A stretch of 32,391 nucleotides of DNA. It comes from Verrucomicrobiota bacterium. GTDB taxonomy: Bacteria > Verrucomicrobiota > Kiritimatiellia > Kiritimatiellales > Tichowtungiaceae. The stretch's first letter is position 1; every line of letters starts with the position of its first letter. This document shows positions 9,191 through 17,154 of the stretch, piece by piece. The stretch is from the NCBI GenBank assembly GCA_030153935.1, contig JASKKX010000016.1, positions 1-32,391 of the forward strand, in the 5' to 3' direction. The notes below the pieces were generated by a model. That model searched no databases and was not told the DNA's origin. It saw nothing but the letters and a program-made list of their open reading frames with translations. The position numbers were made by a program, and so were the translations under genes.

Positions 9191-11242
9191 TTACATCATA
9201 AACATCATTTCAGCATAGGACGGTAACGGCCAGAAGTCTTCCGGAACTATCTTTTCGAGAGCATCGACCGATGCGCGGACTTTGCTCATCGCCGCAATCT
9301 GTTTTTCCGCTCCGTTTGCTTTTTCGAGTGCCGCAACAGCTTTGTACAGCTTTTCGGTTTCCGCGCACATGCCTTTCAGCGATGCCTTGGCACCAACCGT
9401 CGTTCCTCCGACTGCGTCGATGCTCTTGACCGACACTGCCAGCTCAGCCTGCGCGGTCATTACCGCCGGAATAATCATGGTTTTGGCCATCGTCAATGCG
9501 GTATTGGCTTCGATTTCAATCGTCTTCTCATAGGCTTCTTTGTAGATCTCGTAACGGGAATGGAGTTCTTTTTCGCTCAGTACACCGTATTTCCTGAAAA
9601 GCTCGATCGCCTTGCTGCCGGTATACGCCTTGAGTGCATCCAGTGTTTTTTTGACGTTCGGCAGACCGCGCTTTTCAGCTTCTGCCGCCCATTCGTCGGT
9701 ATAATTGTCACCGTTGAACAGAATGCGTTTGTGCTTTTTGATGATACCGGAGAGCAGTTTCTGCAACGCTTCGTTGAATGCCTTCCCGGCAGCCACATCC
9801 GCTTCAAGTTTTGTGCAGATTTCGTCGAAGGCTTCCGCCACGATCGTATTGAGTACAACATTGGCACCCGCCGGATTCTGATTCGAGCCAACTGCGCGGA
9901 ACTCAAACTTGTTGCCGGTGAAAGCAAACGGGGATGTACGGTTCCGGTCGGTGTTGCCGCGAGGAAGGATCGGAAGCGTGTCTACGCCGAGATGAATGAC
10001 TCCACCCTGCCTGGAACTGTTGGCCGGACCTTTTTCAATCTGTTCAACGATATCGGTGAGCTGATCGCCGAGGAAGACCGAAATAATGGCCGGCGGAGCT
10101 TCGTTCGCACCCAGACGATGATCATTCCCGGCAGTGGCAACCGAAGCACGCAGAAGATCCGCATGGGTATCCACCGCTTTGATAAGAGCGCAGATGACGG
10201 TCATAAATTTAGCGTTTTCGTGCGGATTGTCTCCGGGTGAAAGCCAGTTTTTCCCGTCCGGACCGCAAAGCGACCAGTTGTTGTGTTTGCCGGATCCATT
10301 AACCCCTGCATACGGTTTCTCGTGCAGCAGACAAACAAGACCGTGTCTTTCGGCAGTTTTGCGAAGCACTTCCATGGTCATCATGCTCTGGTCAACAGCA
10401 AGATTCAGCTCTTGAAAGAACGGAGCAATTTCGAACTGGGCCGGGCAGACTTCGTTGTGACGGGTCTTAGACGGGATGCCTATACGCCAAAGTTCGGTAT
10501 CAAGGTCTTCCATGAAAGCCAGGACACGGGTTTTGATCGCGCCGAAGTAGTGGTCTTCCAATTGCTGGTGTTTGGCCGGGGCACTGCCGAACAGCGTGCG
10601 ACCGGTTTGCTGCAGGTCAAGACGAGCGTTATAGTATTCTTCGTCCACTAGAAAGTATTCCTGCTCGGAACCGAGAGTGGCAAATGCCCGCTGCTGCACT
10701 TCAATACCAAACAGCTTAGCCAGACGGCAGGATTGTTCATTAAGAGCTTTCATTGAACGCAGCAGCGGGGTCTTTTTATCGAGAGCCTCGCCATGGTAGC
10801 CGCAAAAAACGGTGGGGATACAAAGGGTGTTATCCTTAATGAAAGCCGGGCTGCTGGGGTCCCAACCGGTATAACCACGGGCTTCAAAAGTGGCACGCAG
10901 CCCTCCGGACGGAAAACTGGACGCATCCGGCTCGCCCTGAATCAGCTCGGCACCGGAGAATTTACAAACCACGGATCCTTCGCCGTCGGGGATGATGAAT
11001 GAATCATGTTTTTCAGCAGTTGACCCGGTCAGCGGCTGGAACCAGTGCGTAAAATGTGTTGCGCCCTTGGCAATTGCCCATTCTTTCATGGCCTCGGCAA
11101 CTTCGTCGGCAACACCGGCATTCAGATTTTTGCCGATTTTAATGGTTGCCTCAAGCGATTTAACAGTCGCCTCGGCAAGGTGTTCACGCATTACACGCAT
11201 GCTGAACACATTCTCTCCGAATTTTTCAATCGTACTGGACAT
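9191..11242 (-). CDS. glnN: Glutamine synthetase type III
   Basis: A 683-residue enzyme making glutamine from glutamate, ammonia and ATP in the cytoplasm, as a large oligomer of two stacked rings in the known type III enzymes. The N-terminal region ([15 protein letters not shown], then [18 protein letters not shown]) and the [18 protein letters not shown] active-site segment are the hallmarks of type [17 protein letters not shown] holds metal-binding glutamates. The C-terminal extension of about 200 helical residues that type I lacks is present. The ATG at 11242 is preferred because GGAGA lies just upstream; another ATG four codons earlier (11254) has no such site. It lies downstream of glnA on the same strand but behind two terminator hairpins, so it probably has its own promoter, which I could not identify. 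Type III enzymes are not known GlnE targets. Confidence 0.95.
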
Positions 11243-11327
11243 ATTTCTCTCCATTTATTTTCATTTCCGGCTGCAGATCTCTGCTCCGGTCTGTTTTTGA
11301 TAAAAACCAGGGACGGGCGAGGTGATT

Positions 11328-11469: not shown

Positions 11470-12897
11470 CTAGATATCATAATACATAGCGAATTCCCAC
11501 GGGTGAGGGCGTAAGGCTAGTGCCTTTGCTTCATTTCGAAGTTTGTAGCTGATCCAGGTATCAATGACATCCTGGGTAAAAACGTCGCCTTTCAGCAGGA
11601 AACTGTGATCAGCCTGAAGTGCCAGAAGAGCCTCCTCCAATGTTGCGGGAGTATGCGGTACACTCGCCAGCTCCTCGGGCGGAAGATCATAAATATCCTT
11701 ATCCAGCGGCTGGCCGGGATCAATCTTGTTCTGAATCCCGTCAATGGCAGCCATCAGCAGCGCGGAGAATGCAAGATAGCCGTTGCAGCTTGGATCCGGA
11801 CAGCGGAATTCAAGCCGTTTTGCCTTCGGTGAATTGGAATACATCGGAATGCGAACGGCCGCGCTGCGGTTCCGGCTGGAATAAGCCAGATTTACCGGGG
11901 CTTCGAAACCGGGAACCAGGCGTTTGTAGCTGTTCGTGGTGGGATTGGTGAAGGCCAAGAGAGCCGGCGCATGCTTCAGGATTCCGCCGATAGCATACAT
12001 ACAGGTCTCAGACAGACCCGAATACCCGTCGCCGGCGAACAGATTCTGGCCGTCTTTCCAGATCGACAAATGGGTATGCATCCCGCTGCCGTTATCATTC
12101 CAGAGAGGCTTCGGCATAAAGGTCACCGTTTTACCGTATTTGGTGGCAACATTTTTAATGACGTATTTATATTTAAGCAGATTATCGCCCATTTCAACGA
12201 GCGGTGCAAAGCGCAGATCGATTTCGGCCTGTCCGCCTGTCGCCACTTCATGATGCTGACATTCCATTTCGACACCCAGATCCTGCAGGCTCAGCATCAT
12301 TTCGCTGCGCATGTCCTGAAACTTATCCGTCGGCGGAACCGGAAAATACCCCTCTTTGTACCGCGGTTTATATCCGAGGTTCGGAGACTCCTCCTTCCCG
12401 GAGTTCCAGCGGCCTTCGACCGAATCAATCCTGTAGTAGCCTTCATGCTCGTTCTGATCAAAACGGACATCATCAAAAATAAAGAATTCCGCCTCCGGTC
12501 CTATATAAGCGGTATCGCCAATACCAACGGTTTGCAGGTATTTTTCAGCCTTGCGGGCAATATTGCGCGGATCGCGGGTATAGTCTTCTCCGGTAACCGG
12601 ATCACAGATGTTGCAGATCATCACCAGTGTCTTATGCTCAAAGAAAGGATCAATAAACGCGGTTTCCGCAACCGGTTTAACGAGCATATCAGACTCATTA
12701 ATGACCTGCCACCCGCGGATACTCGATCCGTCAAAACCCAGCCCTTCTTCAAAGGTGCTTTCTTTGACTTCACAAACCGGAACCGAAAAGTGCTGCCACA
12801 AACCGGGGAAATCCATAAAACGAAGATCGACGATCTTCACCTCTTCTTTCGCGATCAGATCCAGCACCTCTTTCGGCGACGTCCATTTCTTCATCAT
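11470..12897 (-). CDS. glnA: Glutamine synthetase type I
   Basis: A 475-residue dodecameric glutamine synthetase. Characteristic regions in order: the beta-grasp N-terminus with FDGSSIRGW (55-63), metal-binding [10 protein letters not shown] (134-143), [17 protein letters not shown] with its active-site histidine, the [23 protein letters not shown] block (329-351), and the adenylylation loop [10 protein letters not shown] with Tyr403. The tyrosine in this loop marks the beta-type enzyme switched off by GlnE, which is encoded just upstream. The ATG at 12897 follows a strong GGAGGG; the second ATG three bases later is possible. A sigma-54-type promoter lies 70-85 bases upstream and a terminator follows the stop, so it is probably its own nitrogen-controlled unit. 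Confidence 0.97.
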
Positions 12898-12964
12898 ATT
12901 TTTCCCTCCATTCTGTCTTCAAACAAGTTAATCGCCGGAAAATACAATATCCGTCATGTTTTGA

Positions 12965-12980
12965 AGCAAGAACTGAGCCA
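12965..12980 (-). promoter_or_regulatory. Sigma-54-type promoter for glnA
   Basis: On the minus strand TGGCTC (12980-12975) is followed by five bases and TTGCT (12969-12965). This matches the sigma-54 (RpoN) consensus TGGCAC-N5-TTGCW with one mismatch and keeps the invariant GG and GC ten bases apart. Transcription would begin near 12954, about 57 bases before the glnA ATG. Sigma-54 control of glnA is classical in proteobacteria; whether it applies here is inferred. No enhancer site was recognised. Confidence 0.6.
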
Positions 12981-13094
12981 ACCACTGAACTTTTCGGTTC
13001 TCATTAAAATAAGTAACGGGGAGCAAACCAGTAATAAAAGTTTTAATTCCTGCAAGACAGCTGCCGCGAGACAAAATTGTAATATAAACCGCCG

Positions 13095-16000
13095 TCATAT
13101 TACTTTTTTGTATGAGTTAAGGCGGTTAAGTTCTTCAGTATATATCTCACGAACCTCTTCGGTTCTCCGGGATAAGTCATCCAGAAAGTTGTCTGCTTTT
13201 GCATCGGTTCCCGACAGTCGTTTTGCCAGCGCATTCAATTCATCCGTATGTGCCGGGATTTCATGAATCTGCCGGTTTTCCAAAATTTGTAAAAAATGTT
13301 CCACTCTGCGCAGAAAAACATAGTGGCCGGCGAGCAAACCGGCTGTCCGTTCAGAAAGCAGATCGTGACCTCCAAGGAGGCGCAATGCCTGCAGCGTGTT
13401 GCCGACCAGAATATCCGGATATCTGTAGGCAAAAGAGAGCTGATATCCCTGAACAAGAAACTCAATGTCACGAATTCCGCCAATCCCTGTTTTTACGTCA
13501 TGGGTTAACGAGTTTTGTTTTGTTATCTGCTGAATTGCAGCTTTGCGCATGGAACAGATGGAAGAGACAATCGCGTCAACAGGCAGCGGGCGGGATAACA
13601 GTGACCGGACCTCCTTAAGGAAGGGATCGCCGGTCTCCCGGCTTCCGGCAACAATCCGACTTTTAAGAAGAGTCTGGATTTCCCATAAAGCCGCTTTGTT
13701 TTTGTAATAATCTTTCATTGATTCCGTTGTAAGCGGCTGTTCGCCCGCTGAACCGTAGGGGCGGAGCCGGAAATCAATCCGATAGGCATAGCCGTCGGAA
13801 GTGTGTCGCGTCAGGTTCCTGCAGAGCCGATTCAGCAGCCGGCTCAGAATTTCTCTCTCTTTCCCAACCAAGACGGAATTCCGTTCGAAAGGCTCGAATC
13901 CGGCTATTAAGTCGATGTCCGAACTGTAATTCAACTCTTCTCCGCCGAGTTTTCCTAAACCGATAAGAAAAAAACGGCTCACAAGTGATTCATATCCTGA
14001 AGGAATGTGTCCTTCATCCATCAGGTGCCGCCAGGTATTTCGGATTGCTTCTTCAAGGACGGCATCGGCCAGCGCAGAAAGGTCGCCGGTAATCTCCTCA
14101 ATCGGCGCTTTCAGGATCATATCACGGGTTCCGATGCGGAGGATTTCACGCCGCCGAAAGCGACAGACTGCGGATGGCCATTCCTCATAAGGTTCTGAAC
14201 CCAGGGTCGATTCGGCCAGTTCCGCAATCAATGTTTCGCGGCTGCGCGGCCTCTGGAGGACAACAGGATCTGTCACCCAGCTTAAAAACCCCGGATAACG
14301 GATCAGGCTGTCGGCCAAAAACTGGCTGCGGGAAAAGATGCCCAGCAGAATATCCAGTCTTTTCGGCTGGGAAAGAAGGGTCTGAAAATGTTCAAGCGGA
14401 TTGTCTGCCTTCGAAACGAATCGGTCCCAGTTATTCAATGCCATATCCGGGGCCGGTTCGTGCTTCAAATGGTCGCAGGCCAGAACCGCCAGGGACAGGA
14501 ATACCTCGCGGCGCCGACCTCTTCCTGCCAGAGAATGCAGGTTGGAAAACGCTCGTCCAGCATCACGGAATCCAGCTCTTTTCAACACATCCGTTACAGC
14601 CGGATCGTTCCTGTCCGACGAAAGCAGCACATCGGCTATATTGCCGCCTGCAGAGCCCGGAAGCGATTTGCGGCCATAGTGTTTTTCGACAAACGCACGA
14701 ACAGCGGCTGTGCGGGTCTCAACGTCGAGGTGGAGTTGTTCGGACGGAGAAAGGCCGTCCTTCTCCTCATACCCCATACGCCTTGCAAGATGCATATATT
14801 CATCACTTTTGATCTCCGGCAGAAAAAGATCCCGCGCGGATCCACGCAGCATTCGCAACCCATTGATCAACCTGCGGGCAAACCCGTAGGCACTCACAAG
14901 ACGTTCCTGCTCTTCGGCATCCAGGATTCCCGCTTCTCGCAAGCCGGCGAGAGCCTGATGGATCTGCGGAGTCCTCAGGGCGTCGTGTTCCGCTCCGAAC
15001 TCCACCTGCAGAAGCTGTACCGTATATTCCAGATCCACCAGAGCACCGGGGCTGAATTTTGCATTAAAACGCCCCGGTTTATTTTTTTCGGTCGCCTGCC
15101 GCGCCCTCAGTTTATGAATATCCTCCAGCTTGATTTCCCGCACCCGGTATACAAACTCATCGCGCAGGCGTTCCAGACGGGTTCCGAACGTGTGATCTCC
15201 GGCAATCGTTCGCATTCGCACCAAGGCAAGGCGTTCATACGACAGCGCCGGACCGCCCGGCCCGTAGTATTTACAGAAGTTTTCCAGGCTGCAGGCCAGC
15301 GGACCGCTGTGTCCGTACGGCCGCAGACGCAAGTCCACTTCGAAAATTCCCTCCCGTTTCGCCAGAATCGACTTGGCAGTAAGACGGGCCAGTTCACAAA
15401 AAAACTCTGCATTACTGATCGAATGTTCGCCATCCGTGCTGCCGTTGTCGCTGTAAACGAAAAGAAGCTCGATATCCGATGCATAGCCGAGGGCAATACC
15501 GCCCAGCTTACCAAGGCCCATCACAGCGTAGTGGGCAGGCAGACCGCCGACTGTGCGAGGGTGTCCGTGACGGGCTGTCAAAATTTCCCAAATTATACCG
15601 GCCGTTTTTTCCACAACCAGTTCTGCAAGAGCGGTCAGTCTTCGGGCCAGTTCACTGAACTGCATGCCACGCTGCAGAATGTGATCCAGATCGATCAGGA
15701 AAATTTCCCGGTCTTTGAATTGGTTAAGCATTTTCAGCCGCTCTTCGGTCGTCGTACAGGAGGCCAGAGCGGCATCAAGTCGCGCGCGCAGGGGTGTCGA
15801 AGAAGCAATCGGCACAGTGCCATCGACAGGCGGCTGCAGGATCGGAAGCAGTGATTCATACTGAAGCCGGATAAAATCCTCCCAGAGGAAGTCACTTGCT
15901 CCCAGCAGGCGGGCGAGGTCGCGCATCGTGCGGGGGCCTGATATGATTTCCAGCCAGTCCTGCCGATTCGGTGCCGCAATGATATCCTGTACCAGCTGCC

Positions 16001-16904
16001 AATAGCGGGAAAGTGCCTTATAGGGATCCGGTGCCGAAGGAAGAAAAAAAGTGAACTGTTTGGTCAGTAAAACTGAGAGCTGAATCCGCTCGCGCACATT
16101 TTTATCGGTCAGAGAGCGTTCCGACCGGTCACTGATTTCGATAGTATCCTCCACACGGCCGCGGACCGTTCGGATACGCACACGTTCAATCGACAGCCCC
16201 TGCAGGGACAGCGCAATACTCAGGGCATAAAGAAAAGCCGGTGTGTCCTGAGAAACAACACGGAGAGTTGCCGTGCTGGACGAAACGTCTGTCATTGAAA
16301 TGTCCATCGGATAAAGTACGGGAGATGACTGCCGCGTCAGTTCACCAAGGGAAACGGTCACCGCATTGTTTACAATCCGCCGGGCCTCTTCGGATGATTT
16401 GGCGGAACCTTCCTCCAGAAGTCGAATAACCTCAGCAAGCCGCTTTCCCAGCAGACTCATCTGTTCTGAGGCCGAACGATTTGACTTATTGCGCAGAATA
16501 AAGCGGTCAATAATCCGGCGACGGCGCAGCAAATCAGGGGTATTGAATCGCGGCTGCCGTCTTCGGCTGGATACAGCGGGTGTTTCCGTCCGGGCGTATG
16601 TGAAAACATTCCCGGAAAGAATGGAAAATCCATAGGCCGCCAACAAACCGGATATAACGGAAAATTCGGAAGCATAATCAAACGCGAGCACGGTCCAGAC
16701 TATCGTTCCGTTTTCACCGTCTGAAACAATCGTTGCCACCGGATGATCGCTGTTCAGATCCTGCAGCAGGCGCACATGGCAGGCAATTTCTCCGTTGGAA
16801 AAGTGTTTAAAATAATCTTCAGGCAGGCGGGAGAGGTGCTGTTGGACGGCCTTGAGCTGGAGGCCGTCGTCCAGGCAAAAAATTTCGTTAACAGTCGGCT
16901 TCAT
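13095..16904 (-). CDS. glnE: Glutamine synthetase adenylyltransferase/adenylyl-removing enzyme with N-terminal ACT-like region
   Basis: A 1269-residue protein that adds AMP to, and removes it from, the loop tyrosine of glutamine synthetase. E. coli GlnE is 946 residues; the extra length is an N-terminal region of about 300 residues with two ACT-like segments (about 68-106 and 211-258, the latter STATLRVVSQDTPAFLYALS) resembling those of GlnD. Two nucleotidyltransferase halves follow. The first has GLGKLGGIALGYASDIELL (Asp477, Glu479) and KFSPGALVDLEYTVQ; the second has GLGKLGGEELNYSSDIDLI (near 982-1000) and GIGGIRDIEFLVQ. By memory the first half looks like the E. coli C-terminal half and the second like its N-terminal half. 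The ATG at 16904 follows a GGCGGGG; the longer open frame upstream reads unlike protein. It ends about 200 bases before glnA. Confidence 0.93.
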   Translation of the reverse strand: MKPTVNEIFCLDDGLQLKAVQQHLSRLPEDYFKHFSNGEIACHVRLLQDLNSDHPVATIVSDGENGTIVWTVLAFDYASEFSVISGLLAAYGFSILSGNVFTYARTETPAVSSRRRQPRFNTPDLLRRRRIIDRFILRNKSNRSASEQMSLLGKRLAEVIRLLEEGSAKSSEEARRIVNNAVTVSLGELTRQSSPVLYPMDISMTDVSSSTATLRVVSQDTPAFLYALSIALSLQGLSIERVRIRTVRGRVEDTIEISDRSERSLTDKNVRERIQLSVLLTKQFTFFLPSAPDPYKALSRYWQLVQDIIAAPNRQDWLEIISGPRTMRDLARLLGASDFLWEDFIRLQYESLLPILQPPVDGTVPIASSTPLRARLDAALASCTTTEERLKMLNQFKDREIFLIDLDHILQRGMQFSELARRLTALAELVVEKTAGIIWEILTARHGHPRTVGGLPAHYAVMGLGKLGGIALGYASDIELLFVYSDNGSTDGEHSISNAEFFCELARLTAKSILAKREGIFEVDLRLRPYGHSGPLACSLENFCKYYGPGGPALSYERLALVRMRTIAGDHTFGTRLERLRDEFVYRVREIKLEDIHKLRARQATEKNKPGRFNAKFSPGALVDLEYTVQLLQVEFGAEHDALRTPQIHQALAGLREAGILDAEEQERLVSAYGFARRLINGLRMLRGSARDLFLPEIKSDEYMHLARRMGYEEKDGLSPSEQLHLDVETRTAAVRAFVEKHYGRKSLPGSAGGNIADVLLSSDRNDPAVTDVLKRAGFRDAGRAFSNLHSLAGRGRRREVFLSLAVLACDHLKHEPAPDMALNNWDRFVSKADNPLEHFQTLLSQPKRLDILLGIFSRSQFLADSLIRYPGFLSWVTDPVVLQRPRSRETLIAELAESTLGSEPYEEWPSAVCRFRRREILRIGTRDMILKAPIEEITGDLSALADAVLEEAIRNTWRHLMDEGHIPSGYESLVSRFFLIGLGKLGGEELNYSSDIDLIAGFEPFERNSVLVGKEREILSRLLNRLCRNLTRHTSDGYAYRIDFRLRPYGSAGEQPLTTESMKDYYKNKAALWEIQTLLKSRIVAGSRETGDPFLKEVRSLLSRPLPVDAIVSSICSMRKAAIQQITKQNSLTHDVKTGIGGIRDIEFLVQGYQLSFAYRYPDILVGNTLQALRLLGGHDLLSERTAGLLAGHYVFLRRVEHFLQILENRQIHEIPAHTDELNALAKRLSGTDAKADNFLDDLSRRTEEVREIYTEELNRLNSYKKVI

Positions 16905-17154
16905 AAAAGAACCCCGCCATTTTGCATCCGGCAAACGATGGAAACGACTGCGCCGTTCCGACCTTCTATAGCCACCCTGTTTTGGCCGGCAACCCGACTG
17001 ATTCTCAGCAGAACAGATCCATTTCAAAACCAACCCGCTTAAAAACGGACGCTGCTTACAGGTATGATCTGATGACTTACAGCGCGGAATCCAGTACGGA
17101 TCCAGTCAAGCCGTTTAATGATTATGCCGCATATATAAAAAAAGCCCTTACCGA

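Follow-up and report, generated by a model that had tools for sequence, protein, structure and literature searches.

The glnE gene of a Verrucomicrobiota bacterium encodes what we read, with rather more confidence than doubt, as a bifunctional GlnE carrying the regulatory third of GlnD, a protein that would merge glutamine sensing and GlnA modification. The GlnD-PII-GlnE bicyclic cascade is the textbook model of a signal relay. Because a pair of ACT domains, amino-acid sensors usually found on the separate enzyme GlnD, sits here on GlnE and GlnD is missing from the genome, this nitrogen relay of three proteins is probably condensed into one in this bacterium. The ORF spans positions 13095-17033 on the minus strand of the window, by which we mean the whole stretch of DNA analysed (32,391 nt, contig JASKKX010000016.1). 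Relatives begin with MKP or LKP in the alignment, so the ATG at 16904 is the likely start. The ACT-GlnE fusion gene, delimited using Pfam, NCBIfam, and the alignment of its start with those of relatives, thus occupies 13095..16904 (-) and encodes 1269 residues. The Pfam search returned GlnE twice and GlnD_UR_UTase twice, each PF03710 being followed by PF08335, and detected neither an ACT nor an HD domain. A full-length model (residues 60-1259, pLDDT 87, pTM 0.80) matches 1v4a and 3k7d in Foldseek. By the sequence of its catalytic halves, the protein is a member of the GlnE family, in which a regulatory region has been transplanted from GlnD and the order of the domains is altered.

The preliminary description had noted ACT-like segments at residues 68-106 and 211-258 of an N-terminus of about 300 residues. 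Each of them is the first part of an ACT domain according to profiles and AlphaFold2: structure prediction and profile searches of the region gave two ACT folds (pLDDT 88) and matches to GlnD. In NCBIfam, positions 616-843 of the 850 of TIGR01693 (GlnD) match residues 16-276 (59-319 in the ORF; whole-protein E=5.2e-17), and PRK05092 matches the protein at 2.1e-14. Since the whole-protein value may include the catalytic similarity of GlnE and GlnD, we also report the ACT stretch scored alone in the genome search, which matches the same GlnD positions with E=2.9e-14. Whole-protein matches of relatives to GlnD profiles reach 9e-27. The alignment extends the homology to the linker helices that precede the first ACT domain in GlnD (residues ~17-62), so that the two proteins share the whole regulatory third of GlnD. 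The corresponding N-terminal helices (residues 1-62, 16719..16904 (-)), delimited by GlnD profiles, AlphaFold2, and alignment, carry the motif RYF..F....I..H. Residues 1 to ~300 can therefore be equated, at the level of sequence and predicted fold, with the C-terminal third of GlnD, i.e., linker helices and two ACT domains in the same order. The region is C-terminal in GlnD, whereas here it is N-terminal, attached to GlnE halves, and devoid of the nucleotidyltransferase-HD part.

AlphaFold2, GlnD profiles, and Foldseek agree on the two domains, ACT1 at residues 68-165 (16410..16703 (-)) and ACT2 at residues 201-290 (16035..16304 (-)). In the AlphaFold2 model of residues 1-345, built from an alignment of 82 sequences (pLDDT 88.1, pTM 0.87), units 68-165 and 211-290 are each predicted to form a beta-alpha-beta-beta-alpha arrangement, with additional strands at 56-62 and 201-206. 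ACT1 has predicted strands at 68-75, 93-102, and 130-139 and helices at 80-90 and 145-165; ACT2 has strands at 201-206, 211-219, 237-247, and 250-259 and helices at 224-234 and 268-290. We assign the putative fourth strand of the ACT fold to one of the additional strands. With the N-terminal region as query, phmmer found no relative among PDB sequences, and fold comparison was needed: Foldseek matches the region to solved single ACT-like domains (ACT domain of GL3, TM 0.83 by target length, 2.0 A), and its best match to the whole region is the ACT-bearing region of the large glutamate dehydrogenase. We considered an origin from the N-terminal region of that enzyme, to which the top Foldseek matches point, and rejected it because sequence profiles favour GlnD.

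E. coli GlnE (PF03710; PDB 1v4a, 3k7d) shares with this protein a pair of nucleotidyltransferase halves (each with a PF08335 helical region), the acidic residues of the metal sites, and a type I glutamine synthetase (GS), here the probable target. It differs in lacking the 300-residue GlnD-like ACT N-terminus, in the order of its halves, and in a catalytic motif. BLAST, trees, and Foldseek place the adenylylating (AT-type) half first (residues 319-741, 14682..15950 (-)) and the deadenylylating (AR-type) half second (residues 839-1257, 13134..14390 (-)). BLAST and trees (support 98) put the second half together with the AR half, which comes first in E. coli and in all classical GlnEs sampled. 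The first half and its relatives form a separate clade (support 100), which lies beside E. coli AT in a tree of 32 halves (78/59) and has no resolved partner in a tree of 118 halves. AR is thus the firmer of the two labels; the sequences tie the other half weakly to E. coli AT, and its label is drawn partly by elimination and partly from profile placement, NCBIfam profiles putting AT first and AR second in one fused Verrucomicrobiota genome (G114). Together, BLAST, both trees, and profile placement argue for the order ACT-ACT-AT-AR, in which the halves are reversed relative to the AR-AT order of E. coli. The metal-site residues D477, E479, and D524 (AT-type) and D996, D998, and D1044 (AR-type) are invariant in 65 sequences; the AT-type half has a DxE motif where E. 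coli AT has DxD.

We scanned a genome collection with the ACT-AT alignment, which gave 298 relatives, and kept the best 80. Taxa were read from the titles of the records, which are mostly metagenome-assembled genomes (MAGs). These best 80 of 298 come from Deltaproteobacteria, Spirochaetota, Lentisphaerae, Kiritimatiellae, Planctomycetes, Sumerlaeota, and Chitinivibrionales, and as far as their contigs reach, all are ACT-AT-AR. A third order, ACT-AR-AT, seemed to occur in some spirochaetes, in which tblastn spans were ~1.1 kb longer; it proved to be an artefact, all 80 loci being ACT-AT-AR. A minor form, AR-ACT-ACT-AT, is found in three genomes from two phyla (G046, locus L078; G126, L079; G615, L328). 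In all of these best 80 loci, and likewise in the relatives from the window's class, the ACT pair directly precedes the AT-type half, whichever of the two arrangements is present. Within the window's class, GlnE is present in 20 of 288 genomes, and nearly all intact ORFs have the fused length (1235-1392 aa), the remainder being fragments, frameshifted, or, in one case, 1094 aa long. GlnE is absent from all 13 further genomes of the same genus. In Desulfobacterota, few GlnEs (5 of ~57) are of fused length with ACT, and Spirochaetota have both fused-length and shorter forms. In some spirochaete ORFs of ~920-960 aa (L329, L330; G639, G664, G688), the second half scores weakly or not at all. One fused glnE (L073, genome G139, contig C3) is split over three frames (412, 663, and 365 aa), reflecting assembly errors or a pseudogene. 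Our search of the literature on ACT-GlnE fusions and on the distribution of GlnD and PII, thin in subscription journals, found no description of the fusion; domain databases may list the architecture.

The preliminary description had also remarked that neither glnD nor glnB lies in the window, and this is correct: glnB is on another contig, and a profile search for full-length GlnD found none in the whole genome (93% complete). The PII of this genome reads YRGTDLEVNLL, with Leu in place of Tyr51. In E. coli, PII-UMP drives deadenylylation (PMC6316151); with GlnD not found and Leu at position 51 of PII, the uridylylated form is unlikely to be made in the window's genome. A survey of fused genomes for the loss of GlnD and PII modification gave a split answer. 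Full-length GlnD was found in 0 of 26 fused genomes of the same class, family f31, and spirochaetes and was absent from 37 of 50 fused genomes other than the window's (a set partly overlapping the former), absences that are approximate because most genomes are draft MAGs. The extension also occurs in 14 genomes with both full-length GlnD and a Tyr51-bearing PII: the other 13 of the 50, all labelled Deltaproteobacteria/Desulfobacterales, and the Verrucomicrobiota genome G114. The notion that the fusion always replaces GlnD is therefore rejected, the fusion does not by itself imply a shortened cascade, and the co-occurrence in Desulfobacterota means that GlnD loss is not required for the fusion. 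The shortened cascade suggested earlier thus fits the window's genome, devoid of detectable GlnD and with Leu51, and likewise the fused genomes of its class and of spirochaetes; it fails as a general rule.

Tyr51 follows GlnD closely. It is present in 14 of 14 GlnD-positive and in 1 of 30 GlnD-negative fused genomes (Fisher p=1e-10, ignoring kinship), although 2 of these 30 entries look like duplicates from their contig coordinates, leaving 28. One more GlnD-negative fused genome, G651, has a Tyr51-bearing PII. The T-loop classes without Tyr51 in GlnD-less genomes include YRGVDIEVNLL and YRSHKEAGSLL (e.g., L080:6069-6425 (-)). Any lineage that lacks GlnD would be expected to lose Tyr51, and the loss is no proof that GlnE took over sensing.

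The probable substrate is encoded nearby. The glnA gene (11470..12897 (-)) lies 197 nt downstream of glnE and encodes a type I GS in which the adenylylation-site motif, with its tyrosine, is present; it is followed by glnN (9191..11254 (-)), a type III GS. A gene of the sodium/glutamate symporter family (PF03616; 4468-5847 (+)) stands a few genes from this cluster. In a comparison of 20 genomes, the GlnE-bearing ones have a type I GlnA with the sole exception of G046; those from the same genus and order that lack GlnE have type III only. In G046, which has a fused GlnE, we found no GS of the PF00120 family. In four same-genus genomes (L364-L367), the genes dnaB-bamA-skp-lpxD-glnN are contiguous without a glnE-glnA cassette, and lpxD is separated from glnN by 234-280 nt; in the window, glnE and glnA (11470-16904) fill 5.9 kb between these two genes. 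Fused glnE and glnA probably make up a two-gene cassette that was acquired or lost in one piece between lpxD and glnN. Neither this cassette nor the reversed order of the halves had been noted in the preliminary description. The GC content of the cassette genes is not distinct from that of their neighbours, so composition neither supports nor excludes a recent transfer. About one in three fused loci has glnA next to glnE, in the same orientation and no more than 400 nt away, and a gene for PII adjoins glnE in several.

We propose that the ACT pair acts as receptor for an amino acid, glutamine being the likeliest, and reports it to the adjoining AT-type half. When occupied, it would favour adenylylation, and thus inactivation, of GlnA; when empty, it would favour deadenylylation. 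One protein would then do the job of the E. coli chain from glutamine to GlnD, PII-UMP, and GlnE. A PII that lacks Tyr51 may continue to signal 2-oxoglutarate and ATP/ADP through plain binding. The choice of glutamine as ligand is conjectural, because the beta1-alpha1 loop has mostly lost a glycine that is a hallmark of the ligand site in many ACT domains (PMC3173338): this residue is present in 31 of 82 sequences in ACT1 and in 3 of 82 in ACT2. The ACT1 position is variable and that of ACT2 is Ala or Phe in most copies, the window's protein having Ser79 and Ala223. E. coli GlnD also lacks the glycine in ACT1 (alignment). The pair could therefore sense another amino acid, with GlnE answering to a signal other than glutamine. 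Besides the replaced glycine, above all in ACT2, this reading draws on the ACT domains of other enzymes, whose ligands include Ser, Thr, Ile, and Phe, and on large glutamate dehydrogenase, whose ACT-bearing region gives the top fold match to the N-terminal region as a whole. We think it unlikely, given that the pair is closest in sequence to the ACT domains of the glutamine-responsive GlnD and that the enzyme under control makes glutamine. Proteins such as 3-phosphoglycerate dehydrogenase, threonine deaminase, and the plant ACR11 share the ACT fold and a part in the regulation of amino-acid metabolism; in GlnE, by comparison, the effector would act on an enzyme that modifies another protein, and the ligand-loop glycine is often lost.

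It is less probable still that the pair binds no ligand and serves chiefly as a structural element or as a docking site for PII or GS, with glutamine acting at a site of the E. coli GlnE type. The E. coli AT/AR enzyme has its own allosteric glutamine site without having ACT domains (PMC5448240), so that direct glutamine sensing by GlnE is not in itself new, and both the lost glycine and the PII genes beside several fused loci fit such a role. The GlnD origin of the pair speaks against it, as do the Asp of the ligand loop, retained in both ACT domains in 81-82 of 82 sequences, and the association of the fusion with GlnD-less genomes in several phyla. The fusion could also supplement an intact GlnD-PII cascade with another glutamine input instead of taking its place, as it would in Desulfobacterota and in G114, i.e., in the 14 fused genomes that keep GlnD and Tyr51. 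For the protein described here we regard this as improbable, the least likely of the explanations weighed, and it is disfavoured for the window's genome: GlnD was not found in it (93% complete), nor in the same-class fused genomes or the spirochaetes tested.

The preferred reading, a GlnE with a built-in GlnD sensor, may extend beyond this bacterium. We give about even chances to a GlnD-free mode of GS control in several phyla, in which the GlnD sensor sits on a reordered GlnE, always on the adenylylating half, PII lacks the uridylylation tyrosine, and one protein both senses and modifies. If true, such a one-protein form in nature would illustrate how relays come to be shortened or fused, and it would open glutamine sensing and GS modification to study in one polypeptide. 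It would also explain how GS could be deadenylylated in bacteria that have GlnE and are unable to make PII-UMP.
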